Below are positions 1 to 21,441 of a DNA stretch of 21,441 nucleotides, piece by piece. Position numbers and translations under genes: made by a program. Under the pieces are notes generated by a model, which did no database searches, had not been told where the DNA came from, and saw only the letters and a list, made by a program, of their open reading frames with translations. Position 1 is the stretch's first letter; every line of letters begins with the position of its first letter. The DNA comes from a virus, in IMG/VR virus record IMGVR_UViG_3300017744_002160, positions 1-21,441 of that record. One strand, 5' to 3'.

Positions 1-1964
1 AAGATGCCCTACTGGAAGAATATGCAGTAGGAATGTTAAAAGATTTTTACTTACGTGATTATGAAAAGAGTCCTCAAGAAGGATTCAGACGAGCAGCAGA
101 AGCTTGGTCTAAGTATAGAGAAGAAATGGACGATGAACTCGCCCAACGTCTCTATGATTATGTAAGTAATAAATGGTTTATGTTCGCCTCCCCTGTGCTA
201 TCTAATGCACCCAATGGAGAAACTAAGAAAGATAAAGGGATGCCAATCTCTTGTTTCTTGACCTATGTACCAGATACCCTCGAAGGATTAATCGGTCACT
301 CATCTGAGTTGAGATGGTTGTCTGTCTATGGTGGTGGTGTAGGTGGTCATTGGTCAGATGTAAGAACCGTATCAGACATAGCGCCTGGCCCGATTCCGTT
401 CCTACATACTGTTGATGCAGATATGATTGCATACCGTCAAGGTAAAACTCGTAAGGGTTCTTATGCCGCATACATGGATATATCACATCCTGATATTGTA
501 GAATTCATGAACATGCGTATACCTACAGGTGACGTACAACGTAAAGCATTAAACTTACACAATGCAATCAATATCTCAGATGAGTTTATGAATGCGGTAA
601 TGTCTAATGATACGTTTGACCTACGTGACCCTAAAGACGGAACAGTTAAAGAATCTATTGATGCACGTAAATTATGGGAACGTCTAATAGAGATTCGTTT
701 CCGTACAGGTGAACCTTACCTAAACTTTATTGATACCGCAAATGCGGGTCTACCAGAACCTCTTAAAGAAAAGGGGTTAAAGATACATGGGTCTAACCTA
801 TGTAATGAAATACATTTACCGACATCCGAAGACAGGACTGCGGTATGTTGTTTGTCCTCATTAAATTTGGAGTATTATGATGACTGGAAAGATACGACAA
901 TCGTTCGTGATATTACTAGGATGCTTGACAATGTCTTGCAGTACTTTATTGAAAACGCCCCCGATACAATATCAAGAGCAAAGTATTCCGCAGAAAGAGA
1001 GAGAAGTATTGGAATCGGAGCAATGGGATTCCATTCCCTCTTGCAACGACACGGAGTTGCATGGGAGTCTGAAGCTGCAAGAGATATTAACCGCACAGTG
1101 TTTGCTCACATTAAATCAGAAGCAGTACTGGAAACTGAACTGCTCGCAGAAGAACGTGGTGCATATCCAGATGGGGAACTGTCTGGAAGAAGAAACTCCC
1201 ATCTTCTTGCGATTGCTCCAAATGCCTCGTCTGGTGTAATTTTAGCGACAAGTCCATCTATTGAACCATTGAAGGCAAATGCATATACACATCGTACACG
1301 TGCGGGTTCATTTCTTGTAAAGAATAAATACCTCGGCAGATTACTAGATGAAAAAGGTGAGAACAATGAATCTACTTGGACATCTATTATTACTAAAAAA
1401 GGTTCGGTACAACACTTACCATTCCTTAATGAAGGTGAAAAGGCAATCTATAGGACTGCGGATGAACTTGACCAGACATGGATTATTACCCATGCATCTG
1501 AACGTCAAGAATATATCTGTCAAGGTCAATCAGTAAATTTATTTTTCCCTACTGGTTGTGAAAAGTCTTATGTAAACAAGGTGCATCTAAAAGCATGGAG
1601 TGACGGACTCAAAGGTTTATATTACCTAAGAACTGAGTCTAAACAACGTGCAGAGAATGTATCTGAAAAAGTAGAACGTGTTGCACTTGCGGGTGATACC
1701 CTTAGTATAGTCTATAGTAAAGCAGATTGTCCTTTCTGTTCTATGGCAATGGAAGAACTAAAACTAAGAGGAATACCTTATGACAAGATTGACCTCAAGG
1801 ATATTGGTAAGACTGCCGCAGAAGTAACAGGACGTAAAGTAAAAACAGTACCACAAATTTACATCGAAGGTGAATATGTCGGTGGGTACGAAGAATTGAT
1901 GGAATATTTAAACAAACCAATAGAAACAAACGAAGACGATGAATGTCGTGCTTGCGAGGGATAA
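1..1964 (+). CDS. nrdA: Ribonucleoside-diphosphate reductase large subunit with internal glutaredoxin domain (5' partial)
   Basis: Reduces ribonucleotides to deoxyribonucleotides with NrdB. The frame is open to the window edge (first full codon at 3), so the N-terminus, including any ATP cone, is missing; the ATG at 33 is internal. Counting from that Met, the class I core is visible: the redox Cys of the MPISC motif (74), the NLCNE active-site loop (N255, C257, E259), the partner Cys (272/273), the PNASS loop (396-400) and the radical-transfer tyrosine pair (530-531). Oddly, a glutaredoxin-like domain follows at about 556-627, with CPFC (566-569), the cis-Pro TVP (605-607) and GGY (617-619), and only after it comes a short tail with a CxxC pair (638, 641) like the usual NrdA swinging tail. 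The glutaredoxin therefore sits between core and tail and could re-reduce the enzyme in cis. nrdB follows after 3 nt. Confidence 0.96.
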   Translation, partial: DALLEEYAVGMLKDFYLRDYEKSPQEGFRRAAEAWSKYREEMDDELAQRLYDYVSNKWFMFASPVLSNAPNGETKKDKGMPISCFLTYVPDTLEGLIGHSSELRWLSVYGGGVGGHWSDVRTVSDIAPGPIPFLHTVDADMIAYRQGKTRKGSYAAYMDISHPDIVEFMNMRIPTGDVQRKALNLHNAINISDEFMNAVMSNDTFDLRDPKDGTVKESIDARKLWERLIEIRFRTGEPYLNFIDTANAGLPEPLKEKGLKIHGSNLCNEIHLPTSEDRTAVCCLSSLNLEYYDDWKDTTIVRDITRMLDNVLQYFIENAPDTISRAKYSAERERSIGIGAMGFHSLLQRHGVAWESEAARDINRTVFAHIKSEAVLETELLAEERGAYPDGELSGRRNSHLLAIAPNASSGVILATSPSIEPLKANAYTHRTRAGSFLVKNKYLGRLLDEKGENNESTWTSIITKKGSVQHLPFLNEGEKAIYRTADELDQTWIITHASERQEYICQGQSVNLFFPTGCEKSYVNKVHLKAWSDGLKGLYYLRTESKQRAENVSEKVERVALAGDTLSIVYSKADCPFCSMAMEELKLRGIPYDKIDLKDIGKTAAEVTGRKVKTVPQIYIEGEYVGGYEELMEYLNKPIETNEDDECRACEG

Positions 1965-1967
1965 CAA

Positions 1968-2969
1968 ATGGCATTATTAGAATTTAGCAAAACATATAAA
2001 CCTTTCCTCTACCCTTGGGCGGTGGAATTAACAAAGAAACATGAAGAGGTTCATTGGGTCGAAGATGAAGCGGAACTATCCGAAGACATCCAAGACTGGA
2101 GAACAAAACTGTCTGGTGAAGAGAAGGAATTTATTACTCAAGTATTGCGATTGTTTACTCAATCAGATGTACAGGTGGGTGAGAATTACCATGAACTGTT
2201 AATCCCTAAGTTCAAGAACAACGAGATTCGTAACATGTTGTCTTCATTTGCAAACCGTGAAGGTGTACACCAACGTGCATATGCATTATTAAATGATACA
2301 CTAGGATTACCAGACGAAGAACATTCTGCATTTATGGAATACAAAGAGATGGCAGACAAGATTGACTTCATGTCTCAAGGTGACATTAACACCCAAACAG
2401 GTCTTGCACTTGTACTTGCACAATCTGTATTCAACGAAGGTATGTCTCTGTTCGCATCATTTGTAATGTTGTTGAACTTCCAACGTTTCGGTAAGATGAA
2501 AGGTATGGGTACTATTGTAGAGTGGTCTATCAGAGATGAGACTATTCACGTACAGGGTAATGCAAAACTCTTCAGAGAGTTCTGTGAAGAACATCCACGT
2601 ATCGTCAACGATGAGTTGAAGTCTAAAATCTATCAGATGGCACGTAATGCTGTTAAGTTAGAAGACCGATTCATTACACTTGCATATAAGTCTGGTGATA
2701 TCGAAGGTTTATCTGAGGCAGATGTTAAACAATACATCCGTCACATTGCAGACCGTAGATTACTACAACTTGGTATGAAACCTAAGTTTGGTGTAAAGGA
2801 CAATCCACTACCGTGGTTGGACTGGGTACTGAATGGTGCATCTCATGATAACTTCTTTGAAAAACGTGTGACTGAATATTCAGTTAACGGTATGGAAGGT
2901 GACTGGGGTTGGGTCGAAGAAGGTGACCCTGAAAGTTGTGGATTGGATGGAACTGGTTGTGCCGCCTAG
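1968..2969 (+). CDS. nrdB: Ribonucleoside-diphosphate reductase small subunit
   Basis: Diiron-tyrosyl radical subunit that starts catalysis in NrdA. It is 333 residues, close to the family norm. By spacing to the E. coli protein the metal ligands are D67, E98, H101, E157, E191 and H194, and the radical tyrosine is Y105, so this is a radical-Tyr type enzyme. The motifs FANREGVHQRAY (94-105) and RDETIH (189-194) are clear. The start ATG follows a GAGGG ribosome-binding sequence at 1956-1960 and lies 3 nt after the nrdA stop, so the pair is cotranscribed. The C-terminus, which in this family docks into NrdA, ends with two cysteines (324 and 331) and Ala-Ala rather than the hydrophobic end seen in E. 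coli. The stop overlaps the next gene's GTG by one base (TAGTG). Confidence 0.97.
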   Translation: MALLEFSKTYKPFLYPWAVELTKKHEEVHWVEDEAELSEDIQDWRTKLSGEEKEFITQVLRLFTQSDVQVGENYHELLIPKFKNNEIRNMLSSFANREGVHQRAYALLNDTLGLPDEEHSAFMEYKEMADKIDFMSQGDINTQTGLALVLAQSVFNEGMSLFASFVMLLNFQRFGKMKGMGTIVEWSIRDETIHVQGNAKLFREFCEEHPRIVNDELKSKIYQMARNAVKLEDRFITLAYKSGDIEGLSEADVKQYIRHIADRRLLQLGMKPKFGVKDNPLPWLDWVLNGASHDNFFEKRVTEYSVNGMEGDWGWVEEGDPESCGLDGTGCAA

Positions 2970-3091
2970 TGGAAGACGACATAACCTACAATTTGGAATG
3001 TCATCTTTGTGAAACAGAAACGGAAGTACTCGTAAAGAATTGCGAGGAAGAACCCCAATATTGTCCCATGTGTGGGGTAGCAATAGACTAG
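2969..3091 (+). CDS. Small zinc-ribbon protein, 40 aa
   Basis: A 40-residue frame starting at GTG, whose G is the last base of the nrdB TAG. It contains two CxxC knuckles, CHLC at 11-14 and CPMC followed by Gly at 32-35, with one more Cys at 25, which is the pattern of a small zinc ribbon; the sequence is otherwise acidic. There is no ATG in the frame before the first knuckle, so GTG with stop-start coupling is the only reasonable start. Function is unknown: small zinc ribbons can bind nucleic acid or a partner protein. Its position directly after nrdB is suggestive but does not show a role in nucleotide reduction. Support is the tight coupling, the intact frame to a stop at 3089-3091, and the paired cysteines. 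Confidence 0.68.
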   Translation: MEDDITYNLECHLCETETEVLVKNCEEEPQYCPMCGVAID

Positions 3092-3120
3092 TTATATATA
3101 CTCGTATGTGGATATACGAG
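3092..3120 (+). promoter_or_regulatory. AT box plus start-codon hairpin before the GIY-YIG-like gene
   Basis: TTATATATAC at 3092-3101 is followed by a perfect inverted repeat, CTCGTAT (3101-3107) and ATACGAG (3114-3120), with a 6-nt loop. The ATG of the next gene (3106-3108) lies at the end of the left arm, and no Shine-Dalgarno sequence precedes it. The same arrangement occurs at 10712-10741. The AT box may be a late-type promoter element (one change from TATAAATA), in which case the transcript would start at or near the ATG; alternatively the hairpin controls translation of read-through mRNA. Structure is seen; function is inferred. Confidence 0.45.
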
Positions 3121-3510
3121 AATAAAGAGTTTAACCCTGAAGAAGAATTCTTGGAGGAATACCAAGGATTCGTCTATTGCGTTACAGAAGTATCAACAGG
3201 TAAGAAGTATATTGGTAAGAAATTCTTCTGGAAACCTAAGATACTTCCTGTTACAAAAACAAGAAAAAGACGCAAAAGAACAAGGGTTCAATCGGACTGG
3301 CGGAACTACTATGGTTCGTCAGAAACAGTAAAAACACTCGTAGAAGGGGGTCAGGACTTCCAGAGAACCGTTCTAAGACTATGTCGTACTAAAGGTGAGT
3401 GTTCATACTACGAAGCGAAACTACAATTTGAATATGATGTTTTGTTGAGTGATGAATACTATAATGAGTTTATAGGTTGTAAGATTCATGCAAAACATAT
3501 TAAATCGTGA
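3106..3510 (+). CDS. GIY-YIG-like nuclease domain protein, 134 aa
   Basis: Near the N-terminus the protein has a VYC strand (about residues 24-26), then GKKYIGKK about ten residues later, which matches the GIY/YIG two-strand signature, then a very basic loop (KTRKRRKRTR) and WRNYYGSS. A helix with YYEAKLQFEY near 107-116 could supply the catalytic Glu. Proteins with this GKKYIGKKxFW signature are common in marine T4-like phages, where they are usually annotated as hypothetical or putative endonucleases. I chose the ATG at 3106 because the upstream ATG at 3040 would run through the zinc-ribbon gene in another frame. That start lacks a Shine-Dalgarno sequence and sits in a hairpin. Its 3' end overlaps the ANL gene by 23 nt. 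Nuclease activity is inferred, not shown; a homing role is not supported because there is no interrupted gene beside it. Confidence 0.6.
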   Translation: MWIYENKEFNPEEEFLEEYQGFVYCVTEVSTGKKYIGKKFFWKPKILPVTKTRKRRKRTRVQSDWRNYYGSSETVKTLVEGGQDFQRTVLRLCRTKGECSYYEAKLQFEYDVLLSDEYYNEFIGCKIHAKHIKS

Positions 3511-4723
3511 TGCAATTTCCTCTGGACGAGGATTTGTATATGATAAGGTCGGCAAAAACACCGTCTGTTTAGAAATAAACAAAATAAAGAATTTACTCTG
3601 GGATGCGGGTGCAAGAAAAGGTGACATAGTAACTATCGGTATTATGGTAGTTGATGTGAAACATATCGCTTCTATCTTTGCATGTGCGGAACTAGGATTG
3701 AAAGTCTTTATCCTCAATAGTCCAGCAACAAAAGAATCCCTACCATTTACTAAACTTGCACTCCATGGCCCGAGTGATTTCACTATCTACAGTTCTCAAG
3801 AAGATACCACACAAGTCTATAATGGTCTTCACGATGAGATGATAAAACTATACGGTGGTATTCGTATTGATGTCATGGAAGATTCGTCTGATAGAAATAT
3901 CCAAGGTGAGTTAGTATATCCAGAAGACACATTCTTAATAAGTTCTACCAGTGGAACAACTAAAGCATCTAGACCAATATTGTTTTCACACCAAGAAACA
4001 ATGGCAATCGCCAAACGTAATATAGATATATTTTGGTTTGGACATGATGCAAAGGTTATTCATTCTAGAAATCTACATCATGCATCCGCAATCATGACGC
4101 ATCTGTTACCCGCACTTATGAATGCATACTCACATAGTTCTTTTGCACTGGGTCATGATGGGTCGCACGAAGAAGATTATGACTATCTAAAGGGTCTGAA
4201 AGATTTATCAGACAGTCCTCCATCAAACATTATGATGCCTAATAAGAATGTTCTCTTTGATTTTCTAGAGAGTTTTGGGGGTGCATTCAAAAGAACTGTC
4301 AATGTCAATATGTGTGGATTCTTAATGGATGCAGATTTCGTTGACCTTGCAAAAGAATACAATGTTTGTTTTCAGTCACATTACGGTAGTATTGATACCG
4401 CTATTCCCTTATTAATAAACCGTGTAGACAAAGATACGGTACATGTTCCTAATTCATTAGGGGTACTATGCGATGACTTTTATAAGACAACCCTTGAGGA
4501 TGGTCGTATGAAGGTAGAATGCCCATTCTGGAACGAACCAAGATACATGGATGATGAGATAGCTTTGTTTGATGGTGAATATATTTTAATGAGTAATCGT
4601 CCAGTATCCCTAAAAGATATGGGTGTACCAGAAGGATTTGATATAACTCCATTTTCCCATGATACTAAAATCGACTTTGAACAGTTGAGAGGATACTTAG
4701 ATGTTACTAATAGCAGGGTGTAG
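3488..4723 (+). CDS. AMP-binding (ANL superfamily) adenylate-forming enzyme, C-terminally short
   Basis: Looks like an acyl/aryl-CoA synthetase or amino-acid adenylation enzyme. Seen: an A2-like helix-strand region (GDIVTIGIMV, 45-54, then IASIFACAELGLKVFIL, 60-76), the ATP-binding loop STSGTTKASRP (153-162 region, core A3), an A5-like HYGSIDTA (298-305) where the usual Glu is Asp, and an A7/A8-like YMDDEIALFDGEY followed by SNR (353-371). The family normally has about 110 more residues after that Arg hinge, holding the A10 catalytic Lys; here only about 40 remain and no PxTxxGK-type motif is visible. So the enzyme may adenylate without the C-terminal lid, use a partner, or be degenerate. No carrier protein is seen nearby. 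The start overlaps the preceding gene by 23 nt; the end overlaps the SGNH gene by 23 nt, so the pair is probably coupled. The substrate cannot be read from the sequence. Confidence 0.75.
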   Translation: MQNILNRDAISSGRGFVYDKVGKNTVCLEINKIKNLLWDAGARKGDIVTIGIMVVDVKHIASIFACAELGLKVFILNSPATKESLPFTKLALHGPSDFTIYSSQEDTTQVYNGLHDEMIKLYGGIRIDVMEDSSDRNIQGELVYPEDTFLISSTSGTTKASRPILFSHQETMAIAKRNIDIFWFGHDAKVIHSRNLHHASAIMTHLLPALMNAYSHSSFALGHDGSHEEDYDYLKGLKDLSDSPPSNIMMPNKNVLFDFLESFGGAFKRTVNVNMCGFLMDADFVDLAKEYNVCFQSHYGSIDTAIPLLINRVDKDTVHVPNSLGVLCDDFYKTTLEDGRMKVECPFWNEPRYMDDEIALFDGEYILMSNRPVSLKDMGVPEGFDITPFSHDTKIDFEQLRGYLDVTNSRV

Positions 4724-5522
4724 TTTTGCATGGGGAGATGAGTTGGTTGGTTCAAGAAGCAAACCACCAACACATTATGATTTAGTATTCGGTAGTATTT
4801 TATCATTAAAGTTAGGGTTAGAGTACAATAATATATCTGCATGTGGTAATTCTAACTACAAGATATTCCGTGACGTTATGAATAATATGCATCTAAACCC
4901 TAGTCACATCTTTATCTTGTGGTCTGACCCTTTGAGAAAAGAGAATCTATTAGAAGTAGATAACCATCAAAGAGACCTGTTAAAGGTACATACTACTATG
5001 TCTATGACTCAGTGGCACGAGAATCGATGGGATGACTTGATGCTTTCTATGGAAGAAGGTGTTGCACACAAGTGGGCAAGACATCATCCATTTAATTATA
5101 TGACCTCGTTTGGAAGAAGTGAAAAAGCAATCGATGCATATGGTACAGGATTGTGTACTGGATTTACTCACCTATTACCTCAAATGATTGCAATGCAATA
5201 TATGTGCGATGGTATGGGGATTAAGATTTCTCAAGGTGTATTCCATGGAGAAGTTTTCTCTGAAGTGCAAAGATACATGGCAAAGATTGAAAGATTCCCT
5301 TCAAGTAATCAACTCAAAAAATGGAACACATGGGTATTAGATTCACTTGACAAACTAAGACCAGAGAATAAACTGGGAATGAACCCCGACAAGTCATTCG
5401 ATGAGAACGTCACCATAAAGTCTCTAATGGGGGACAGACCCATGAAGAAATGGGGTCATCCCGATGAAACTGCACATGTAGACTATGCAGAATACCTCTA
5501 TAAAATCATAAAAAATCTATAA
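4701..5522 (+). CDS. SGNH/GDSL-type hydrolase
   Basis: 273 residues. Block I is GCSFAWGDE (6-14), with S8 as candidate nucleophile; GNSN (49-52) fits the block II/III Gly-Asn oxyanion region; and near the C-terminus HPDETAH (253-259) resembles the block V His. The Asp normally three residues before that His is not obvious, so the catalytic pair is less certain than the nucleophile. SGNH proteins of this GCSFxWGDEL type occur in marine phage genomes next to glycosyltransferases, where an esterase or O-acyl transferase role on glycans is usually supposed. There is no signal peptide, so it should act in the cytoplasm. A GAGAGGA sequence at 4686-4692 fits the ATG at 4701, which overlaps the ANL gene by 23 nt; an acyl-adenylating enzyme and an acyl hydrolase could act on one acyl group. 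That link is inference. Confidence 0.68.
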   Translation: MLLIAGCSFAWGDELVGSRSKPPTHYDLVFGSILSLKLGLEYNNISACGNSNYKIFRDVMNNMHLNPSHIFILWSDPLRKENLLEVDNHQRDLLKVHTTMSMTQWHENRWDDLMLSMEEGVAHKWARHHPFNYMTSFGRSEKAIDAYGTGLCTGFTHLLPQMIAMQYMCDGMGIKISQGVFHGEVFSEVQRYMAKIERFPSSNQLKKWNTWVLDSLDKLRPENKLGMNPDKSFDENVTIKSLMGDRPMKKWGHPDETAHVDYAEYLYKIIKNL

Positions 5523-5529
5523 AAAAAGC

Positions 5530-5558
5530 TTGACAAACTCTGCTCTTGTTGTTATAAT
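5530..5558 (+). promoter_or_regulatory. Sigma70 consensus promoter P1
   Basis: TTGACA at 5530-5535, a 17-nt spacer and TATAAT at 5553-5558 preceded by TGT (extended -10). All twelve hexamer positions match. It reads toward the small gene at 5588, with transcription expected near 5565. It shares TTGACAAAC and TTRTTATAAT-type sequence with the promoters at 5865, 6506 and 10058. Confidence 0.92.
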
Positions 5559-5587
5559 AAGTATATAAAATGAGAAAAGGAGAGAAA

Positions 5588-5881: not shown

Positions 5882-5893
5882 TCTTGTTATAAT
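5865..5893 (+). promoter_or_regulatory. Sigma70 consensus promoter P2
   Basis: TTGACA at 5865-5870, 17-nt spacer, TATAAT at 5888-5893 with TGT before it. A perfect consensus, overlapping the end of the preceding gene and reading toward the gene at 5925. Confidence 0.92.
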
Positions 5894-5924
5894 AATAACA
5901 TAAACTGAAGAAAGGAGATAAATT

Positions 5925-6344: not shown

Positions 6345-6356
6345 GGAGATATTGTA

Positions 6357-6509: not shown

Positions 6510-6534
6510 CAAACCATGTACTTAATGTTATGAT
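6506..6534 (+). promoter_or_regulatory. Sigma70-type promoter P3
   Basis: TTGACA at 6506-6511, 17-nt spacer, TATGAT at 6529-6534 preceded by TGT. One mismatch from consensus. It shares TTGACAAACC with P2 and reads toward the gene at 6561, which has AAGGAG at 6547-6552. Confidence 0.88.
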
Positions 6535-7845: not shown

Positions 7846-8090
7846 TGCCCCTATATACAGTAGTAAATGAAAAAACTGGAGAAACAGAGGACTGTTTTTG
7901 TTCTTATGTACGTCTCCAAAAAAGATTAAAAGAACTAGGTTCTGATTGGAAACAACAGATTGGCGCTCCCGCATTAATAAGTGGTACTGGTAATGTTGTT
8001 AACAAAACAAGTAGTGATTGGAAAGACCACTTGAAGAATATCGAGAAAGGTGCTGGCGGTAAACGACAAGGGGTAGATTTTAAAAGATGA
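7845..8090 (+). CDS. Small conserved phage protein upstream of phoH, 81 aa
   Basis: Begins MPLYTVVNEKTGE, which resembles the first beta-hairpin of FmdB-type zinc-ribbon proteins, but only CFC (17-19) remains of the expected cysteines, so a zinc site is doubtful. The middle (APALISGTGNVVNKTSSDWK) and basic C-terminal tail match small unknown proteins that I recall lying beside phoH in marine T4-like phages. The start shares one base with the panD stop (TGATG) and the end overlaps phoH by 4 nt (ATGA), so it is translated as part of one run. The function is unknown; the conserved position suggests a partner of PhoH or of virion assembly, which is inference. Confidence 0.75.
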   Translation: MPLYTVVNEKTGETEDCFCSYVRLQKRLKELGSDWKQQIGAPALISGTGNVVNKTSSDWKDHLKNIEKGAGGKRQGVDFKR

Positions 8091-8773
8091 CAATGAAGCG
8101 TCTCAAGATAGACCATTTGATGACATACGATGCAATAACATCCAATCAACAAATTGCATATGAATCTTGGAAAGACGGAGACCATTTAGTTCTCTGCGGT
8201 TCTGCGGGTACTGGTAAGACCTTTGTTGGTATGTATCTTGCACTACAGGATGTCCTTGATAAATCTTATGAACAGGATAAACTTGTTATTGTAAGAAGTG
8301 TTGTTCCTACCAGAGAAATGGGTTATTTGCCTGGCAGTGTTGAAGAAAAGATTGATGCCTATGTTGCACCCTATAAATCAATTGCAACTGAACTCTTCAA
8401 TGAGAAGATGGCATATGAGAATTTAGAACAACAAGGAATTATTGAGTTTGTATCAACATCGTTTATACGTGGTACAACTCTAGATAACTGTGTGGTATTG
8501 GTTGATGAGATGCAGAATCTTACCTTCCACGAACTAGACAGTATCATTACAAGAGTGGGTAAGAATAGTCGTATTATCTTCTCTGGTGATTATTATCAGT
8601 CTGACCTGAAGTCCAGTTCAGATAAAAAGGGTATTCTTGACTTCATGAATATTATGGAAGTCATGAATAATTTTACAACTATAGAATATGGATGGGCAGA
8701 CATCGTCCGTTCAGACTTTGTTAGAGACTATATAATGACAAAGGAGATGGTTGAAAGAGGAAACATAAAATGA
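8087..8773 (+). CDS. phoH: PhoH-like ATPase
   Basis: P-loop ATPase of the PhoH family, 228 residues. Walker A is GSAGTGKT (38-45), followed by the PTREMGYLPG block (74-83) typical of PhoH, Walker B as VVLVDEMQN (136-144), and SGDYYQSDL (166-174) in the sensor region where most family members have GDxxQxD. The core resembles the ATPase domain of superfamily 1 helicases. In marine phages phoH is very common; it is not reliably tied to phosphate starvation, and an RNA-related role has been proposed for bacterial relatives. It overlaps its neighbours by 4 nt on each side (ATGA), so it belongs to the panD-to-glycosyltransferase run. No PIN domain or other fusion is present. Confidence 0.95.
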   Translation: MTMKRLKIDHLMTYDAITSNQQIAYESWKDGDHLVLCGSAGTGKTFVGMYLALQDVLDKSYEQDKLVIVRSVVPTREMGYLPGSVEEKIDAYVAPYKSIATELFNEKMAYENLEQQGIIEFVSTSFIRGTTLDNCVVLVDEMQNLTFHELDSIITRVGKNSRIIFSGDYYQSDLKSSSDKKGILDFMNIMEVMNNFTTIEYGWADIVRSDFVRDYIMTKEMVERGNIK

Positions 8774-10711: not shown

Positions 10712-10741
10712 CTTATATATACCTACATGAGATATGTAGGT
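10712..10741 (+). promoter_or_regulatory. AT box plus start-codon hairpin before the carbamoyltransferase
   Basis: CTTATATATAC at 10712-10722 is followed by a perfect 8-bp inverted repeat, ACCTACAT (10721-10728) and ATGTAGGT (10734-10741), loop 5 nt. The ATG (10727-10729) spans the end of the left arm and first loop base. There is no Shine-Dalgarno sequence. The same layout is found at 3092-3120, though the arm sequences differ. Confidence 0.45.
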
Positions 10742-12253
10742 TATTCAGAATTCTACCATGATGCCGCACTTGCCATTGTTGAAAACGATGGTACAGTTGC
10801 TTTCGCATCCCAATCAGAAAGATACAGTGGTGTTAAGATGGATGGTCTAATCCATCCACCTATGTGGAATATGGTTAATGACGATGACCATGTTACTTTC
10901 TATGAAGATATGGAAGAACGTGTTAGAGTCATGGGAGGTCTAAGAACCTTCGGTGCTAGGGGCAACCTTGCTAACAAAAATACTGTTGCTAACCCAGAAA
11001 TAACTGAATTAAAACGACCAATCCACTCGATGGCAATATATGATGATTTCAATAAACATCATGAAAGTCATGCCGCATTAGGATTCTTTACCCGTCCATG
11101 GGAATCAAAAGAAGATACTGTAATTGTATCTGTCGATGGTTCGGGAGAAGTAGAATCTACCGTAATCTATGACCACAATTTTAAACCCTTAAAAGTAGTT
11201 AAATGGCCTCAATCCTTGGGGACTCTCTATGGTATGGGATGTACTGCAATAAAACTAAAACCTCTGAGAGATGAATATATTCTTATGGGTCTTTCTGCAT
11301 ATGGTGAATCTAAGGATGAACTATATCAAATCTTAGAAGATTCCTATTACTGGCATGAAACTAAAAAAGGGAAAGAAGTGTGGGATATAGTTCAGTTCAG
11401 AATGGAATGTATTGCAGATAGTGAACTTGCGTATAGAGACTTTCAGTTTGAAAAACAATTTAAGAAACTAGCAAGGAGACATAGGGAAGAAGACGTAGCT
11501 GCAACAGTTCAGAAGTTCTTTGAGACAGAGATTATAAAACTTATGACCGAAGCACGACAATACGGTTCTAAGTTAATCTTTGCTGGCGGTTGCGCTCAAA
11601 ACGTTGTTGCAAATTCTTTAATTCGTCCTATGTTTGATGAGATGCATATTCCAATCGCACCCAATGATGCGGGTAATGCTCTTGGTTGTGCTGCTTATAC
11701 ATGGCATAAGGAGACAGGCGGAACACATCTGAAGTGGTCTCCATACCTTGGACATAACATAGAACGTGACATAGACCCTAAAGAAGTTGCACAATACCTT
11801 GCAGACAATAAGGTGTGTGGAGTTGCAAATGGACGTGCAGAATACGGGCCTCGTGCATTAGGTAATCGTTCACTACTTGCAGATGTAAGATATGATGTAA
11901 AGGATACAGTTAATGATATCAAACAGAGACATAGATTTAGACCATTCGCACCTGCTATACTATCAGAACATGCGAAAGATTACTTCGAAGGGCCAATGAA
12001 TCAATACATGCAATTTACATCAATTGCAAAACACGATTATTCTTCGGTAACTCATGTAGATGGAACTGCAAGGGTTCAGTTAGTTGAACCTGATTGTGAG
12101 TCCGTCCTACGTCAGATACTAGAAGAGTATTACAAATTAACGGGTGTACCGATGCTACTAAATACATCATTGAACATTCGAAATAAACCTATGGTCAATA
12201 CCATAGAAGATGCTATAGAATGGGAAAAGAAATATAAAGTAAAAGTATTTTAG
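10727..12253 (+). CDS. Carbamoyltransferase (NodU/TobZ/CmcH family)
   Basis: Transfers a carbamoyl group from carbamoyl phosphate, via carbamoyl-AMP, to a hydroxyl. Seen in order: YHDAALAIVENDG (10-22), SERYSG (30-35), the metal-binding HHESHA (111-116), SVDGSGE (135-141), GMGCTAIKLKPLRDEYILMGLSAYG (169-193 region), GGCAQN (287-292), NDAGNALG (313-320), and the C-terminal YrdC-related part with YGPRALGNRS (374-382 region), RHRFRPFAP and LLNTSLN. At 508 residues it is shorter than most relatives and stops soon after NTIEDAI. In marine phages the acceptor is unknown; in bacteria the family acts on Nod factors and antibiotics. Surrounding glycosyltransferases suggest a sugar acceptor, but a nucleotide or DNA base is not excluded. 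The start lies in a hairpin without a ribosome-binding sequence. Confidence 0.93.
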   Translation: MRYVGYSEFYHDAALAIVENDGTVAFASQSERYSGVKMDGLIHPPMWNMVNDDDHVTFYEDMEERVRVMGGLRTFGARGNLANKNTVANPEITELKRPIHSMAIYDDFNKHHESHAALGFFTRPWESKEDTVIVSVDGSGEVESTVIYDHNFKPLKVVKWPQSLGTLYGMGCTAIKLKPLRDEYILMGLSAYGESKDELYQILEDSYYWHETKKGKEVWDIVQFRMECIADSELAYRDFQFEKQFKKLARRHREEDVAATVQKFFETEIIKLMTEARQYGSKLIFAGGCAQNVVANSLIRPMFDEMHIPIAPNDAGNALGCAAYTWHKETGGTHLKWSPYLGHNIERDIDPKEVAQYLADNKVCGVANGRAEYGPRALGNRSLLADVRYDVKDTVNDIKQRHRFRPFAPAILSEHAKDYFEGPMNQYMQFTSIAKHDYSSVTHVDGTARVQLVEPDCESVLRQILEEYYKLTGVPMLLNTSLNIRNKPMVNTIEDAIEWEKKYKVKVF

Positions 12254-13452: not shown

Positions 13453-13618
13453 AAAGATATTACAAGTAGTAAACCTATCACCCGATGAATCAAGAATTGA
13501 AAGATTAACGGAAATGCATCCGATGAGACAAGTTGCGTATGCATCTGTGATACAGGTACTTGTATTTGGATTTATGTTATTATCATTCTGGATGATAAAT
13601 CTAGTAGTAGGTCATTAG
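13442..13618 (+). CDS. Small single-span membrane protein, 58 aa
   Basis: A 58-codon frame overlapping the previous stop by 11 nt and ending in TAG whose G begins the GTG of the radical SAM gene. The first 34 residues are polar and charged (starting MKSKKILQVV, with PDESRIERLTEMHPMRQ), followed by one hydrophobic helix at about 35-56 (ASVIQVLVFGFMLLSFWMIN) and a short GH end. Positive charges before the helix predict a cytoplasmic N-terminus. No family recognised. It might anchor the neighbouring glycan enzymes at the membrane or act in lysis; neither is shown. Confidence 0.65.
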   Translation: MKSKKILQVVNLSPDESRIERLTEMHPMRQVAYASVIQVLVFGFMLLSFWMINLVVGH

Positions 13619-14580
13619 TGAAAATAGATAGAGCAGTAATTGAAATTAACGGTGGGTGTAACTACTCATGTACTATGTGTCCACAGGATATGCGTACTGG
13701 TGGAAGACACAAAGACTTTCTCAAGAAGATGGGACTAGAAGAGTTTGAGAAGAATGTCGCAGATTGCGCCCAACACGGACTAAGAGTAGTCAATCTAGAA
13801 GGTAGTGGAGAACCCACACTGAATAGAAATCTACCTGAATACATTAAGATTGTAAAGAAGTATGGAGCGAAGTGTTTCATGTTCTCTAATGGATTCCGTA
13901 TGCACGGTAAGTTCATGGAAGATTGTGTTGATGCGGGACTAGACTTCTATCGATTCTCTTTTATTGGATACAGTCCTGAGAAGTATGATGAATGGATGAA
14001 CAATATTATTGGAGGAAACTTTAATCATATTGTAAAAAACATACGTGAAATGAAAGCATATGTAGATAAGACTGGTTCAGATTGTTCTGTTGCAACCTAT
14101 CATCTTATTACTGATAATGACAATTTAGACTTTGAACTGAATGCATATAAGAAGTTAGTGAATGACCTTGGGGTAAAGACTGAGATATGGAAGATGCATA
14201 ACTGGTCTGGTGTCTATGACCCTAAACAGAATACACGTAGTGGTGAAGAAAAAACATGTGGTAGACCGTTTAGTCCTGACGTTGTTATACGTGCTGGCGG
14301 TTCTGGTGGGAAAAGAGGTGGTGTCGCACCTTGTTGTCAAGTATTAGGACAAGATGAGAAAGCAGTCCTTGGACATACAAGTGAGAATACTATTGAAGAG
14401 ATATGGAACGGGCCAGAGTATACCAAGTTACGTGAAGACCACACAAATAAAACATATCCTGACTATTGTAAAACATGCGACTTCCTATTAGATGACCCTG
14501 AAGTATTAGTTTATACTAATCATGAACGTGACTTGATGAAGATGCATGGAACTGAGTTTGACTTAAATGATTTCAGATAA
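13618..14580 (+). CDS. Radical SAM enzyme with SPASM-like C-terminal domain
   Basis: Binds a [4Fe-4S] cluster through C14, C18 and C21 (CNYSCTMC) and cleaves S-adenosylmethionine to start radical chemistry. The GSGEPTL motif (62-68) is the SAM-binding GGE equivalent, and the rest forms the usual partial barrel. The C-terminal region has CGRPF (C214), APCC (C239, C240) and YCKTCDF (C284, C287), matching a SPASM/twitch auxiliary-cluster domain. SPASM proteins modify peptides, sugars (for example aminoglycoside dehydrogenases or epimerases) or other small molecules; placed among glycosyltransferases, a sugar substrate is plausible but not shown. No precursor peptide gene is evident beside it. 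Start is GTG 13618 in a TAGTG junction, as at 2969. Confidence 0.9.
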   Translation: MKIDRAVIEINGGCNYSCTMCPQDMRTGGRHKDFLKKMGLEEFEKNVADCAQHGLRVVNLEGSGEPTLNRNLPEYIKIVKKYGAKCFMFSNGFRMHGKFMEDCVDAGLDFYRFSFIGYSPEKYDEWMNNIIGGNFNHIVKNIREMKAYVDKTGSDCSVATYHLITDNDNLDFELNAYKKLVNDLGVKTEIWKMHNWSGVYDPKQNTRSGEEKTCGRPFSPDVVIRAGGSGGKRGGVAPCCQVLGQDEKAVLGHTSENTIEEIWNGPEYTKLREDHTNKTYPDYCKTCDFLLDDPEVLVYTNHERDLMKMHGTEFDLNDFR

Positions 14581-15947: not shown

Positions 15948-15950
15948 ATA
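15943..15950 (+). promoter_or_regulatory. T4-type late promoter box
   Basis: An exact TATAAATA that overlaps the stop of glycosyltransferase B and begins the only sizeable gap in this half of the window. Transcription would begin near 15956, leaving a leader of about 47 nt before the ATG at 16003, which has AGGAG at 15992-15996. Position, exact match and following ribosome-binding site support it. Confidence 0.6.
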
Positions 15951-16002
15951 CTATAGACAATACCGTCAAAACTTATATTAATAGAGTGATAGGAGAAACA
16001 AT

Positions 16003-16701: not shown

Positions 16702-17253
16702 ATGAAAATAGGACTCACGCAAAGAGTCCTCACGCACAATAAACAAGTACATGATTCCTTAGACCGTTGTTGGTATACATTTCTAAGGGGTCATGAACTT
16801 GTTCCTATCCCAAATCGTGAAGACTTGGATTACGAATCCCTTGCAGAATCTCTAGACCTTCTCATAATTACAGGAGGAGGAAACGAGCGTCTTCGAATTA
16901 CCACAGAAGTAAACATGGCAACAGAGATGTCAACTCTGAGATTACCCATACTTGGTATATGTCATGGTGCATTTTTACTCACAGAGATTCTTGGTGGTAA
17001 AACAAGAACAGGTAAAGAGAATCACTATGATGTAGAACATATTGTACACAGTAAGTATGAACCTCATTTAGTTAATAGTTTTCACAATATTGCTATTGAC
17101 AAATGCCCCCCAAATAGTGTACAATTATGTACAGATGCAGAAGGTGATTGTGAATCTTGGATAAAGGATAACATCTGTGCAATCGTGTGGCATCCTGAAC
17201 GGATGATAATACCCTATATACCTACAGAGATTATGAAGGCAACAGGACTATGA
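16702..17253 (+). CDS. Class I glutamine amidotransferase / C26-type gamma-glutamyl hydrolase
   Basis: 183 residues. The triad is C87 in GICHGAF (nucleophile elbow), H164 and E166 in VWHPE; LIITGGGNE (54-62) and VNSFHN (124-129) are family-typical and resemble PuuD-like gamma-glutamyl-GABA hydrolases and anthranilate/GMP synthase-type amidotransferase domains. There is no synthetase domain in the same protein, so it either hydrolyses a gamma-glutamyl compound or supplies ammonia to a partner, none being obvious here. ATG 16702 follows the previous stop with no gap, and the end overlaps the cupin gene by 4 nt (ATGA), so the three genes from 16003 form one unit. Confidence 0.85.
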   Translation: MKIGLTQRVLTHNKQVHDSLDRCWYTFLRGHELVPIPNREDLDYESLAESLDLLIITGGGNERLRITTEVNMATEMSTLRLPILGICHGAFLLTEILGGKTRTGKENHYDVEHIVHSKYEPHLVNSFHNIAIDKCPPNSVQLCTDAEGDCESWIKDNICAIVWHPERMIIPYIPTEIMKATGL

Positions 17254-17933
17254 TTAAAATTATAAAAGAAGGTCAGACCCACCAAGTTCGTGATATATGG
17301 AGTTATGATATCACGTTTATTAAAGGTAGGTACACAAGTGACGATGGTTTTTCGGAATTCGTAGGAATGACTCACGGAACGAGTTACTTGATGGGTAAGA
17401 ACGCTAGTATCAGTATAACTGATGGATTGTCAGTCAATGGTAAAGATTTTGCGGGACAAACAAGTAATAAGTTTACCGTATATGATGACTCCACATTTGC
17501 CCATATAAAATTCTATGGTCTGTCCATGAATGATGAACGTATGTTTATACCTCATGGGAATTCAAAAGGTAATCTATCGTACATGGATGGTGGTACAAAT
17601 ACTACCGCAGTAAATCCAGGCAGACTAGGATTACCTGTTATCAACTATGTCCATTTCCCCGCAGGGATGAAACAAACCCTACACACCCATCCAAGTCAAC
17701 GTATTGCTCTTATCCTTTCTGGTAAAGGTGAGATTGAACTTGACGATGGTGTAATGTTTCCTATCAAAGAAGGTGACTGTTGGGTGATGGAAAGAAATGT
17801 ATTACACAACTTTATGTGTAATCAAGGTGAAGATGTCACCCTATTCGTGTTCAGTCCTGACTCTGGTACAGGGCCGACAGATGAAATTAACCCATTGAAG
17901 GTGAGAACTTATGTCGGACAAACAAGAGTCTAA
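17250..17933 (+). CDS. Cupin-domain protein
   Basis: 227 residues. The C-terminal half is a clear cupin: HTHPSQR (145-151) supplies two His ligands, with Arg-151 near the place of the usual Glu, then ILSGKGEIELDDG (155-167), the GDCW turn and H186 (NVLHNF). The N-terminal half is beta-rich (several glycine-separated strands) and may be a second, metal-less cupin domain, as in bicupins. Cupins include sugar isomerases, epimerases and dioxygenases and also plain binding proteins; nothing here decides among these. It overlaps the amidotransferase gene by 4 nt and the sulfotransferase-like gene by 23 nt. Confidence 0.83.
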   Translation: MIKIIKEGQTHQVRDIWSYDITFIKGRYTSDDGFSEFVGMTHGTSYLMGKNASISITDGLSVNGKDFAGQTSNKFTVYDDSTFAHIKFYGLSMNDERMFIPHGNSKGNLSYMDGGTNTTAVNPGRLGLPVINYVHFPAGMKQTLHTHPSQRIALILSGKGEIELDDGVMFPIKEGDCWVMERNVLHNFMCNQGEDVTLFVFSPDSGTGPTDEINPLKVRTYVGQTRV

Positions 17934-18549
17934 GAAACTAATCATAATTACAGGGCCGCAAGGTTCTGGAAATCATCTATTCAGTAAAGTTTTTGGTTTC
18001 CATCCCGCAGTAGAGGGTTGGAACTTTGGAGATAAGTACTGGATACCATCTGACGAAGAACCCTTCGCAGAGTGTTGGGTTGACCCATCTAGAACAAAGA
18101 GTATGTTGACTCAACAATACATGGTTGCGAATGTCAGTGTACCGTTTGTCTTTGATGGTGTCAAACAAGTCCCTCAAATACAAGAAGTTGTTTATGAAGC
18201 AGAAGAAGCGGGATATGAAGTAAGCGTCTGTATTGTGGTACGAGATGAGAACATTAATAGAATGCAACAATTTAGAGTCCGTAAGGAAATAACTTTACAG
18301 ACTGCACTACAATACTATTATAATCTAGATGCAGAGACAGAGTTTCTCTCCGTTGAATCTCTATATCTATACAAAGCAAAATACTTGAAGTGGTTATCTA
18401 AGGTTCTTGACTTTCCTATTGCATGGTTTGATGAACGAATAGAAGATACTCTAAAAGACAATCAGAACGAGAAGTACGTGAAACGTGTAAAGAAACACTG
18501 GTTAGATGAACAGGTATGGAACGGAATAAAACCAAAAAATGAAAGATAA
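17911..18549 (+). CDS. Sulfotransferase-like P-loop protein 1
   Basis: 212 residues. IIITGPQGSGNHLFSK (11-26) is a P-loop-like 5'-phosphosulfate-binding start of the kind in phage and bacterial sulfotransferases (GxxGSGNH), which would bind PAPS. A second region, CIVVRDENINRMQQFRVRK (about 107-125), could be the 3'-phosphate site with its Arg. The acceptor is unknown. A kinase is an alternative because the GxxGSG loop is shared, but NH instead of K-S/T argues against ATP use. AAGGTGAG lies about 7 nt before the ATG. It overlaps the next gene by 11 nt. Confidence 0.68.
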   Translation: MSDKQESKKLIIITGPQGSGNHLFSKVFGFHPAVEGWNFGDKYWIPSDEEPFAECWVDPSRTKSMLTQQYMVANVSVPFVFDGVKQVPQIQEVVYEAEEAGYEVSVCIVVRDENINRMQQFRVRKEITLQTALQYYYNLDAETEFLSVESLYLYKAKYLKWLSKVLDFPIAWFDERIEDTLKDNQNEKYVKRVKKHWLDEQVWNGIKPKNER

Positions 18550-19117
18550 TTATTTATTAATGACAGGAGCGCCAGGCAGTAGATGGTCTGGAGTTGCAAA
18601 TAACATTCACTCATCTAGTAGTTTTGACCAGACTGATAACACAGAAGAGAGGTCATTCTCTCATCATAATGGATTAGTACATGGGGGTGCATACTTTGAC
18701 CCTATGATGGAATTTGGATTACATAGAGGTGAATGGGACAAACCTTTTTCTGGTAAAGGTATTAGACTAATAAAGTCACATACCTTATCTACATGTTTAC
18801 ATTACTTTGATAAGTTTCCTATTGTTATGGTAATAAGAAATGATTATGAGTGTTGGACGTGGTGGAACGAGTGTGGTGGTTTTGATATTCCATATCCTAG
18901 TTATGAATGGTACAAGAATCAAGATAACATGTTCACACAGATACAATTACAAAATACTGCTATAATGTCATTCATATATAATAAGAAGGACAAAGTAATT
19001 AAATGTAAAGATAACTTTGAAGTACTTGATACTCTAGGATTAAATGCACACCCTAAAGATGTGCAGAGAGATGAATATAATAAAAAGGATGTGAGTGTAT
19101 ATGTCTACCAACCTTAA
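18539..19117 (+). CDS. Sulfotransferase-like P-loop protein 2
   Basis: 192 residues. MTGAPGSRWSGVANNI (8-23) gives the 5'-phosphosulfate loop, IRLIKSHTLS (75-84) corresponds to the strand that carries a catalytic His or Lys in sulfotransferases, and PIVMVIRNDYECWTWW (94-109) with R100 fits the 3'-phosphate-binding strand and helix. Rich in Trp and Tyr, as carbohydrate-binding proteins often are. It differs from the two other sulfotransferase-like proteins in the cassette, so these are not recent duplicates. A nucleotide kinase is less likely because the P-loop has no Lys. It overlaps the methyltransferase gene by 23 nt. Confidence 0.62.
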   Translation: MKDNYLLMTGAPGSRWSGVANNIHSSSSFDQTDNTEERSFSHHNGLVHGGAYFDPMMEFGLHRGEWDKPFSGKGIRLIKSHTLSTCLHYFDKFPIVMVIRNDYECWTWWNECGGFDIPYPSYEWYKNQDNMFTQIQLQNTAIMSFIYNKKDKVIKCKDNFEVLDTLGLNAHPKDVQRDEYNKKDVSVYVYQP

Positions 19118-19646
19118 TCCACATATGGATTTTTTAAAAGATTATTTCACTTACGATTGGCCAAGTTCACGCACTGCGGGACTTGATAGGTATTACTGGA
19201 CGGGATTTAGATTAATTGAAGAAATCAAAGAAGAAGAATCAGTTCTGGATGTTGGTTGTGGTCTCAATCCTCTTAAGCGTCACATTACCAATCTTCATGG
19301 AATCGATATTACAAACATAGGTTCTGACGAACAGGTTGCAATAGAAGACTACCACACAGATAAGAAGTTTGATGTTGCATTTGCATTGGGTAGTATTAAT
19401 TTTGGTGATTGGGAACTAATTCAACAACAGACTAAGTCAATGTGTAATGCATTGAAACAGAAGTCTCGTATCTATTGGAGATGTAATCCCGCACACCGTG
19501 ACCATGGTAATGATAAGGTACAGGATGTACCTTTTTGGCACTGGTCACTAGATGACCACCTCTTGTTATCAAAACAAAACGGATTCCAAATAACAGAATT
19601 TATGCAAGACTTGAATCGTTATTATGTCAAGTGGGAAAGAGAATGA
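19095..19646 (+). CDS. Class I SAM-dependent methyltransferase 1
   Basis: 183 residues. VLDVGCGLNPL (50-60) is motif I, IHGIDIT-like sequence (GIDIT) marks the acidic strand-2 end, and FDVAFALGSIN is motif II/IV, giving a Rossmann-type methyltransferase of the Methyltransf_11/23 kind. The substrate is not evident; its place between two sulfotransferase-like genes suggests a glycan or sugar. Start: GTG 19095 has AAGGA 5 nt upstream, while ATG 19101 has it 11 nt upstream; both are possible and differ by two residues. The end overlaps the next gene by 4 nt (ATGA). Confidence 0.82.
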   Translation: MYMSTNLNPHMDFLKDYFTYDWPSSRTAGLDRYYWTGFRLIEEIKEEESVLDVGCGLNPLKRHITNLHGIDITNIGSDEQVAIEDYHTDKKFDVAFALGSINFGDWELIQQQTKSMCNALKQKSRIYWRCNPAHRDHGNDKVQDVPFWHWSLDDHLLLSKQNGFQITEFMQDLNRYYVKWERE

Positions 19647-20353
19647 AGATGTTTGTACACATCCCTAAAAATGGTGGGATGACAATAAGAAAGAATCATA
19701 AGATTCGTCAACAAGTGTTATTAGCAACACCTGACAATCATAAGAACAGAGCATATACTCAAGGTCTTGAGGAAAAGATGTCACAAACAAAAGACCACCA
19801 AGGATATGAACATGCACGTTGGAGAGACTGGAAACAAGATTTAAAAGACACACATAAAGCAGTTGCAATTGTTCGTAATCCGTGGGACAGAGTATGTTCT
19901 CGTTATATGTTCGCAAAGAAGGTAATGGAATACGAAGGAACTCAACCAGAAAAATATGCAGACACTTCATCATTTGAGGCATTCCTAGAGGAACGTCACA
20001 TATGGGGTGGACAAGAATACTTATGGCATCGTGCGATACGTGGATGGTATCCCGCATATGACCATGTATCAGATGAAGAGGGGAAAAACCGTTGTGACAT
20101 CCTACGGTTTGAAAACTATAACGAAGATGTCAAACTATATTTTGGATTGTTAGAGAATCCAGAAGCAAGAAATATTACTCGTGTACCTAATGACAAAGGT
20201 AAGACAGGATACGGTACTTCTTATAGGGATATATACACTAAAGATACTATTCAGATAATTGCTGACTGGTATAAGAAAGACATTGACTATTGGGGATTCG
20301 ATTTCGATAGTGGTGCAACGAGGAATTATTGGAATGTTAAAACAACTATTTGA
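19643..20353 (+). CDS. Sulfotransferase family protein 3 (Sulfotransfer_2-like)
   Basis: 236 residues from ATG 19643. FVHIPKNGGMTIRK (4-17) is the 5'-phosphosulfate loop of membrane-type carbohydrate sulfotransferases (HIPKTGGTS), and VAIVRNPWDRVCSRY (74-88) is the 3'-phosphate site (RNPxDRxxSxY). FENYNED later fits the family's acceptor-side FE(D/N) strand. This is the clearest sulfotransferase in the window and should move sulfate from PAPS to a sugar hydroxyl; it has no membrane anchor. The ATG at 19643 is favoured by its ATGA overlap with the preceding stop, over a GTG at 19631. It overlaps the next gene by 20 nt. Confidence 0.87.
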   Translation: MKMFVHIPKNGGMTIRKNHKIRQQVLLATPDNHKNRAYTQGLEEKMSQTKDHQGYEHARWRDWKQDLKDTHKAVAIVRNPWDRVCSRYMFAKKVMEYEGTQPEKYADTSSFEAFLEERHIWGGQEYLWHRAIRGWYPAYDHVSDEEGKNRCDILRFENYNEDVKLYFGLLENPEARNITRVPNDKGKTGYGTSYRDIYTKDTIQIIADWYKKDIDYWGFDFDSGATRNYWNVKTTI

Positions 20354-20951
20354 CAAATACGATTGTGATAAGGGTACAGAGAAACACCATTATTATAAAG
20401 AATACGAACCCTACATGGAGTCTGTAAGAGAAGACCCCATCAATCTATTGGAGATTGGAACATTTAAAGCAGCGTCTACTCGTGCATTTCATGAATATTT
20501 TCCTAATGGAACAATCTATACGATTGATATATTTGCAAGAACAAACCCAAAAGACCTAGACATCCTACACAAAGATAGAGTTGAATGGTTAAAGTGGGAT
20601 TCTACTGACGCAGCACTTGGAAAGAAAATACGAGAAACTTGGGGTGATGTAAAGTTTGATTTTATTATTGACGATGGCGCTCATTGGCCAGAAGCAAATA
20701 GATTAACTTTTGAGAACTGTGTTTCTTTTATGAAAGAAGATGGAACATACTTTGTCGAAGATGTCTGGCCTATGGATAAAATGAGTCGTAGTGAATTAGA
20801 CAACCCATGGTTATTAAGACAGTCTGAAAGATATGATATGTTAAAACACATTAGGTTTATGAATCATTTAGATAGTTATAACACAACTCACTATGACCGC
20901 AGAAAAGAAACTAAATGCGGTGATACATATATAATTGCAATAAAAAACTAG
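20334..20951 (+). CDS. Sugar O-methyltransferase-like protein (MycE/TylE-like N-terminal signature)
   Basis: 205 residues. CDKGTEKHHYYKEYEPYME (11-29) followed by INLLEIGTFKAASTRAF (36-52), YFPNGTIYTIDIF and DFIIDDGAH (109-117) matches a methyltransferase group that includes macrolide-sugar O-methyltransferases (MycE, TylE) and many polysaccharide-locus enzymes, in which the DxGT...YEPYxE start and the DDGxH motif near the metal site are characteristic. It would methylate a hydroxyl on a deoxysugar or glycan. AGGA at 20321-20324 lies 9 nt before ATG 20334; the ATG-type start at 20259 would overlap the previous gene by 95 nt and lacks support. Confidence 0.8.
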   Translation: MLKQLFDKYDCDKGTEKHHYYKEYEPYMESVREDPINLLEIGTFKAASTRAFHEYFPNGTIYTIDIFARTNPKDLDILHKDRVEWLKWDSTDAALGKKIRETWGDVKFDFIIDDGAHWPEANRLTFENCVSFMKEDGTYFVEDVWPMDKMSRSELDNPWLLRQSERYDMLKHIRFMNHLDSYNTTHYDRRKETKCGDTYIIAIKN

Positions 20952-20963
20952 GATAGCAAGTGC

Positions 20964-21441
20964 ATGATAAAATTAGTTTTATTTGATTTAGACGGTGTTC
21001 TTGTAGACACCAAACAAATGCATTTTGATGCATTGAATCAAGCATTGGAAAAGAATGATTACCTTCCAATAACTCTAAATGAACATCTTTTAAGATTCGA
21101 TGGATTGACAACTGACCAGAAGTTGGATATTTTAGAAATCCCTGATAAAGATAAAAGAAAAATTCATACTCGTAAACAGGCATATACGTATATGACTCTG
21201 AATACGATTAAACCAAACCATGATATTATAGAGTTATTCGAACAACTTAGAGGTGAAGGATATAAGATTGGTGTATGTTCCAATGCAATTGAAAAGACCG
21301 TAGAGAATTGTTTAGAACAACTCATGTTAACTCCATGGTGTGACATTGTATTAAGTAGTTGGGATGTTGAAAACAACAAACCTCATCCAGAAATTTATTG
21401 GAAAGCAATGTCCAAGATGGGAGTCTATCCTGATGAAACCG
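20964..21441 (+). CDS. HAD-superfamily phosphatase, beta-phosphoglucomutase-like (3' partial)
   Basis: At least 159 codons, open to the window end. Motif I is FDLDGVLVDT with D8 and D10; a helical cap with MHFDALNQAL follows, as in beta-phosphoglucomutase and Gph-type enzymes; motif II is GVCSNA and motif III is NKPHPEIYWKAM, after which the acidic motif IV is cut off (PDET is the last sequence seen). It should dephosphorylate or isomerise a sugar phosphate, fitting a glycan cassette. It starts 12 nt after the methyltransferase; GGATAG is the nearest, weak, ribosome-binding sequence. It is only distantly similar to the HAD protein at 10126. Confidence 0.87.
   Translation, partial: MIKLVLFDLDGVLVDTKQMHFDALNQALEKNDYLPITLNEHLLRFDGLTTDQKLDILEIPDKDKRKIHTRKQAYTYMTLNTIKPNHDIIELFEQLRGEGYKIGVCSNAIEKTVENCLEQLMLTPWCDIVLSSWDVENNKPHPEIYWKAMSKMGVYPDET

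Follow-up and report, generated by a model that had tools for sequence, protein, structure and literature searches.

Absence of GATC and several other palindromes from a T4-like marine phage lineage, a probable mark of host restriction

The loss of restriction sites is a well-known strategy of bacteriophages. In the accessible text of the survey by Rusinov et al. (2018; PMC6286503), elimination concerns chiefly the sites of orthodox Type II enzymes and is found chiefly in non-temperate phages. Here we describe an extreme case with lineage-specific word sets, centered on the tetranucleotide GATC in a stretch of viral DNA of 21,441 bases (hereafter the window), which is the complete virus record IMGVR_UViG_3300017744_002160 (G000 in our collection). 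The window is contained, at 99.87% identity, in a virus contig of 149,135 bases (G038:56168-77608). Judging by its genes (ribonucleotide reductase, PhoH, carbamoyltransferase, and radical SAM in the window; UvsX-like, CHASE2-cyclase, and FecR in G038), it is a piece of a marine T4-like bacteriophage. We put at about 0.75 the probability that this lineage has been purged by host restriction of several Type II-like recognition sites, GATC foremost. Like the phages of the survey, as its accessible text describes them, that of the window combines complete elimination of palindromic Type II words with a lifestyle that is probably lytic, since its T4-like gene content and kin suggest a non-temperate phage. 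It differs in that GATC and about seven more palindromes stand at zero over 149 kb, in a set that varies among relatives, and in that the phages of the survey are matched to hosts whose enzymes are known.

Three described phages offer the closest comparisons (counts are given as observed/expected). phiX174 likewise has zero GATC, but its genome measures 5.4 kb, its avoidance has been linked to mismatch repair, and a single word, not a set, is discussed in the accessible text (PMC5014478). Methylophilales phage Melnitz is, like G038, marine and T4-like; the nearest named major capsid proteins to that of G038 are those of Phage C48C1 (70.8% identity), Melnitz (63.8%), and Pelagibacter phage HTVC008M (61.3%). 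The missing or near-missing words are also similar, the isolate Melnitz-2 from OM43 strain H5P1 showing GATC 23/438, GGWCC 0/101, CGCG 1/56, CCGG 15/88, GTGCAC 0/29, and GGTACC 0/14. Unlike G038, Melnitz thus keeps 23 GATC and 15 CCGG; it also has an annotated HhaI-type methylase, a transfer-messenger RNA (tmRNA), and a distant NrdB on a long branch. Its description (PMC9004378) reports, in the text accessible to us, a Type II methylase in both phage and host and no integrases, and its main text, in the part accessible, makes no mention of GATC. HTVC008M is a related T4-like phage of a streamlined marine host and is depleted in words although its host clade is reported, in the accessible text, to lack restriction-modification (R-M) (PMC9516812). 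Its lost words are different (TCGA 2/182 and GANTC 43/328, with CGCG at 1/34), for GATC the count is only reduced (83/294), and for GGWCC and CCGG it is normal. The accessible text of the same paper poses the same puzzle, having found about half of 33 pelagiphages to be depleted in GANTC. Among the titles and opening lines of abstracts listed by a literature search, with subscription papers and preprints outside its reach, none described missing GATC in these phages.

Missing words in the window and in G038

A direct string search found no GATC in the window, as the earlier note on this DNA had claimed. Five null models together put the expectation at 67–85 sites: 85.2 (SD 8.9) in 100 dinucleotide-preserving shuffles; 72.0, 85.4, and 78.7 under Markov models of order 0, 1, and 2; and 67.4 (SD 6.4, minimum 49) in 1,000 synonymous-codon shuffles that held proteins and codon usage fixed across 29 chosen open reading frames (ORFs; 6,716 codons, with some ORFs overlapping). 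Since the G+C content from base counts is 37.9%, the earlier estimate of some 70 expected sites was a good one. The proposed comparison with Markov models gives zero against 72.0–85.4 in the window, and in the 149-kb contig G038 zero stands against 541 expected. In both, GATC is therefore eliminated as we define it (observed/expected below 0.1 with at least 15 expected). As GATC, CCGG, CGCG, and GGWCC read identically on both strands, their absence covers both:

1..21441, both strands: no GATC, CCGG, CGCG, or GGWCC (direct counts, window)

The avoidance is not confined to GATC, and on this point the earlier note, which had thought it specific, was wrong. Scans of all 4-mers and of degenerate palindromes rule out a GATC-only avoidance: CCGG, CGCG, and GGWCC are each at zero in the window, where synonymous shuffling gives means of 13.5, 12.1, and 14.5, and about seven words besides GATC are missing from G038 (CCGG 0/129, CGCG 0/66, GGWCC 0/135, GTGCAC 0/22, GGTACC 0/18, CGNCG 0/80, and GACGTC 0/18). 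CGNCG is also absent from the window (11.6 expected). CCSGG is at zero in G038 too, but both of its forms contain CCGG, and it was not counted as a separate lost word. The presence of GANTC, which had been noticed earlier, is borne out by 99 sites against 84 expected in the window, 94 against a codon-shuffle mean of 69.4 in its ORFs, and 659 against 575 in G038. By synonymous shuffling, GANTC, CATG, GTAC, and CTAG show no depletion in the window, while CCWGG, TCGA, AATT, AGCT, and AGCC/GGCT fall below expectation but are present. For AGCC and GGCT taken together, two occurrences were seen against 58 (order 1), about 15 (order 2), or 37.7 (synonymous shuffle) expected, whereas AGCT and GGCC occur 11 times each.

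Codon choice, counted in predicted ORFs of at least 90 residues, shows that G038 has been recoded against GATC without exception in each of the three codon phases. All 386 Asp codons that precede a C are GAC, against 28–43% before other bases; none of the 457 Ile codons that follow a G is ATC, against 25–33% elsewhere; and none of the 43 Ser codons that follow NGA is TCN, against 73% elsewhere. The first two patterns had been read by eye in the window and are sharper in G038. The matching Asp, Ile, and Ser fractions in the GATC-bearing contig G011 are 0.25, 0.35, and 0.87.

Comparison with relatives that carry GATC shows that sites were removed under protein constraint. Nine subjects were chosen (five GATC-bearing and four GATC-free), and gene pairs below 55% amino-acid identity were left out. 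The orthologs in contig G007, which carries GATC at the expected rate, contain 75 sites in 19 aligned genes, and none is kept in the window; at 42 of them the amino acids stayed the same and at 33 there was a change close by, and GACC (20) was the most frequent substitute. Ten control words (CCGG and CGCG excluded), examined in the same alignments, were kept at 12–56%, the lowest being TCGA. The four other GATC-bearing relatives give 0/74, 0/27, 0/40, and 0/22 sites kept. Pooled over the five, 0 of 238 sites is kept, and 136 were lost without amino-acid change.

Palindromes lost lineage by lineage

Words were counted in relatives at 192 loci (L001-L082 and L119-L228, some of which overlap; L002 is the window). 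Separate counts on contigs covered G007, G043, G044, and G047 up to the last 0.5–2 kb of each. The 213 units reduce to 99 non-redundant contigs, 73 of them at least 10 kb long, among which G038 stands for the window. GATC in the relatives is mostly absent or near expectation, with intermediates such as L032 (6/39), L034 (17/63), and L164 (24/87); it is absent from 18 of the 73 contigs. Across the 4-mer classes, with complete absence defined as zero seen and at least 15 expected, there are 58 absences in 1,082 palindromic tests and 11 in 8,755 non-palindromic ones, the 11 being ten of AGCC and one of CCCG. Palindromic symmetry is a mark of Type II enzymes. The words avoided are of the kind recognized by orthodox Type II enzymes, with AGCC as the notable exception, and the bias toward palindromes is hard to explain by composition or by any one GATC-reading process.

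Which palindromes are missing varies between relatives. G053 (144 kb) is without GATC (0/681), GTAC (0/459), and GGWCC (0/161), and G011 (144 kb) is without CGCG and GGWCC but holds GATC at 791/627. CATG is missing from L185, and both AGCT and CCWGG from G006. GATC avoidance co-occurs with avoidance of CCGG (12/19 vs. 7/51, p = 1e-4) and of GTAC (5/21 vs. 0/52, p = 0.001), and its link to CGCG, GGWCC, and AGCT avoidance is less clear (p 0.07–0.15), all these values being uncorrected for kinship. A protein tree of NrdB with 75 rows, 19 of them GATC-free, calls for at least six changes of GATC state, four of which are forced by starred branches. Each row has at least 12 expected GATC, and the GATC-free cut lies at 0.1, so that L032 (0.16) counts as site-bearing; being one gene's tree, it may differ from that of the whole phage.

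Two side observations concern particular groups. The sub-lineage of G053, G031, and L194 wholly lacks both GATC and GTAC. In L136, L221, L204, and G006 (loci L113-L115), AGCC, AGCT, and GGCT are all missing, but GGCC occurs, its rate being reduced or normal; the avoided word there looks like AGCY, neither a plain palindrome nor the full RGCY.

Host restriction and candidate hosts

Our inference is that Type II restriction in the hosts exerts the selection, with cleavage causing the losses. Entering phage DNA with an unmodified site would be cut in hosts carrying such a system, and site-free genomes would leave more progeny. Substitutions, over half of them without amino-acid change, would remove sites down to zero, and selection would then bar new ones. 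Should the lineage move to hosts with other enzymes, old sites would drift back and others would vanish; such shifts in the set of hosts would explain why relatives differ in their missing words. Selection against a GATC-cutting system, which the earlier note had proposed, is the best-supported reading and fits the lineage-varying loss of palindromes, although the specificity for GATC that went with the proposal is gone.

The suggestion that the missing word could help to identify the host is weakly supported: the word set of Melnitz-2, an OM43 phage, is similar, while the enzyme searches in an OM43-like family (given below) came back empty and the clue from GANTC is mild. This clue is that GANTC is kept in the window and G038 but depleted in HTVC008M, which hints that the host of the window phage is not SAR11-like. 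The hint is weak because G053, with its alphaproteobacteria-type tmRNA, keeps GANTC too (570/709). The tmRNA gene of this GATC-free contig is a permuted one (L242:10239-10630, minus strand; RF04321, RF01849). DpnII was found in 9 of 385 sampled genomes of Alphaproteobacteria, with five strong matches in genomes of 0.9–2.1 Mb, which attests to the occurrence of such systems there and not to contact with this phage. In one small AT-rich alphaproteobacterial genome (L386:1480-3624), the DpnII family match lies beside two ORFs that look like methylases on inspection by eye, one of which is partial. Two approaches through phage genes did not point to a host. The 80 best bacterial matches of the phage epimerase are 38–45% identical and spread over many phyla, which is uninformative, and none of the 31 stretches that matched a pattern in the search with the TonB-plug gene of the phage encoded a relative. 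That gene (G038:90027-91547; L233:10027-11547) encodes a TonB-dependent receptor plug-domain protein with a signal peptide recognized by eye; no other compared phage contig has one, and it is perhaps a receptor decoy.

A number of observations weigh against host restriction. If the hosts are of the OM43 or SAR11 kind, the known enzymes are missing. In an OM43-like family, which need not be that of the phage's host, none of 120 genomes yielded a DpnII-type endonuclease, and none yielded a MutH/Sau3AI-type enzyme; other GATC-cutting families were not searched. The label "OM43-like" for this family, that of genome G446, was given only from the order of G446 (that of a Leptothrix genome), its size of 1.33 Mb, and 35% G+C in a 20-kb sample. 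Methylases do occur in these genomes (D12 in 24/120, C5 in 41/120). For SAR11, the accessible texts report R-M in only one of more than 100 genomes (PMC7029224) and none in eight Pelagibacterales genomes (PMC9516812). The words themselves raise further difficulties. The lost word AGCC is non-palindromic. Retention of the control word TCGA in the window is also low, at 0–22% across the five GATC-bearing relatives (12, 6, 22, 7, and 0%), yet the word is not absent. We know of no enzyme for the palindrome CGNCG. Finally, a small gene of 91 residues partly tracks the GATC-free state.

Genes of the phage, rival explanations, and meaning

The genes on which the rival explanations bear, and the others that we recognized, are as follows.

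33..1964, + strand: ribonucleotide reductase (RNR) large subunit, with a glutaredoxin-like C-terminal end by eye (nucleotide match to the RNR annotated in phage C48C1)
1968..2969, + strand: ribonucleotide reductase small subunit NrdB (bait for relatives and basis of the GATC-state tree)
3040..3510, + strand: SegE-like GIY-YIG endonuclease (PF19835, E 2.8e-33)
8087..8773, + strand: PhoH-like protein (tblastn to marine cyanophage phoH, about 50–55% identity among the matches listed)
10727..12253, + strand: carbamoyltransferase (PF16861, PF02543; annotated carbamoyltransferases in HTVC008M)
13618..14580, + strand: radical SAM/SPASM protein (PF04055, PF13186; bait that fetched G038)
G038:144637-145512 (L236:4637-5512), - strand: D12-class adenine methyltransferase (PF02086, E 1.8e-24)
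G038:86974-87249 (L233:6974-7249): 91-residue protein, phrog_4074, function unassigned (PHROG match)

Marine T4-like phages commonly carry PhoH-like proteins. The D12 enzyme of G038 has matches in 465 phage records, mainly of marine cyanophages, and the FecR and CHASE2-guanylate cyclase genes of G038 (L230:9680-13032) resemble the curli/cyclase region of HTVC008M and Melnitz. Searches by tblastn with two G038 genes against phages yielded three records and no match.

A GATC-specific nuclease encoded by the phage itself, a satellite, or a competing phage would be spared by a genome without GATC. The known hosts of related phages being reported as R-M-poor, in the accessible texts of PMC7029224 and PMC9516812, speaks for such a nuclease, but we consider it unlikely. 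Several words are missing, in a set that varies between relatives, and several nucleases would be needed. We looked for genes that track the GATC-free state by comparing two near-complete GATC-free genomes, with later counts on non-redundant contigs, and no recognized nuclease tracking that state emerged from the two. The HNH endonuclease gene of G038 occurs in none of the other compared contigs, including GATC-free G053. The SegE-like gene of the window occurs in both states (54 GATC-normal, 8 reduced, and 19 GATC-free of the 99 non-redundant contigs), which rules it out as a phage GATC cutter. Twelve G038 ORFs are common to G053 and absent from the compared GATC-bearing contigs, three of them annotated (2OG-oxygenase, cupin, and the 91-residue protein); at a laxer cut-off, however, six of the twelve, besides the cupin, match at least one GATC-normal non-redundant contig. 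Partial tracking is seen for the 91-residue gene, present in six of the seven GATC-free contigs that hold a neighboring gene, in one of 19 GATC-normal contigs (a weak match, 31% identity), and in neither of two reduced ones. Yet this protein has no recognized nuclease domain among its PHROG matches, relatives of it occur in 36 records of phages whose hosts are many and unrelated, and its size makes a GATC endonuclease unlikely; its gene is probably a marker of phage or host type, not a cutter. PADLOC was run on 125 of the 186 G038 ORFs, and the 25 families listed out of 83 include no Type II endonuclease.

Host restriction also accounts better for the range of lost words than does escape from methyl-directed mismatch repair, or from another process dependent on Dam or MutH, after the manner of phiX174. 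In that phage, which lacks GATC where 20 sites are expected, restored sites lower the mutation rate, although its authors call the forces behind the avoidance unclear (both from the accessible text of PMC5014478). Such an escape would be confined to GATC and would leave CCGG, CGCG, GGWCC, GTGCAC, and GGTACC unexplained; since CCGG, CGCG, and GGWCC are at zero as well, and with the MutH search of the one family described above empty, we regard it as improbable. The Dam-reading alternative raised by the earlier note loses weight with the loss of several words besides GATC, though for GATC alone it could still hold. We give even less credence to a phage-encoded DNA methyltransferase or base modification as the force that shapes the word. 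G038 does encode the D12-class enzyme, and Melnitz its annotated HhaI-type methylase, but a protective methylase would make the loss of sites needless, and no GATC is kept in G038 for it to act on. Moreover, the presence of D12 is unrelated to the GATC state: no match was seen in G053 (144 kb), which is GATC-free, while the enzyme is present in C48C1 (GATC 219/196) and G056 (75/77), which are normal in the stretches counted. A Dam methylase of the phage was accordingly rejected as the cause. The D12 enzyme of G038 matches a single Protein Data Bank sequence, 7m6b (sequence search, E<=0.001), and nothing therefore ties it to GATC. Lastly, the window and most of its relatives are metagenome-derived contigs, for which a bias of assembly or library, or else of codon usage, might be suspected. 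This idea is already contradicted and deserves almost no weight: 67–85 sites are still expected from the synonymous and dinucleotide shuffles, which preserve composition; contigs with zero GATC come from many metagenome records of different numbers, and other contigs of that set have normal counts; and the genome of the isolate Melnitz-2 is also strongly depleted.

The known hosts of this clade (OM43 and SAR11) are streamlined, with few or no known restriction systems. It is conceivable, although we hold it doubtful, that something unseen does the cutting, be it an undescribed class of GATC-cutting enzymes, rare strains with R-M that account for most phage deaths, or nucleases made by rival phages or satellites. 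The clash with the reports of R-M-free related hosts, as given in the accessible texts (PMC7029224, PMC9516812), turns this into a testable question: who cuts? Were such an unseen cutter at work, the words missing from a phage lineage would together form a readable record of the restriction that it met in nature. Each lineage seems to bear, in legible form, the list of specificities that it has met, a list that changes within the clade, and for uncultured ocean phages such a list would offer a clue to the host that requires no culture.

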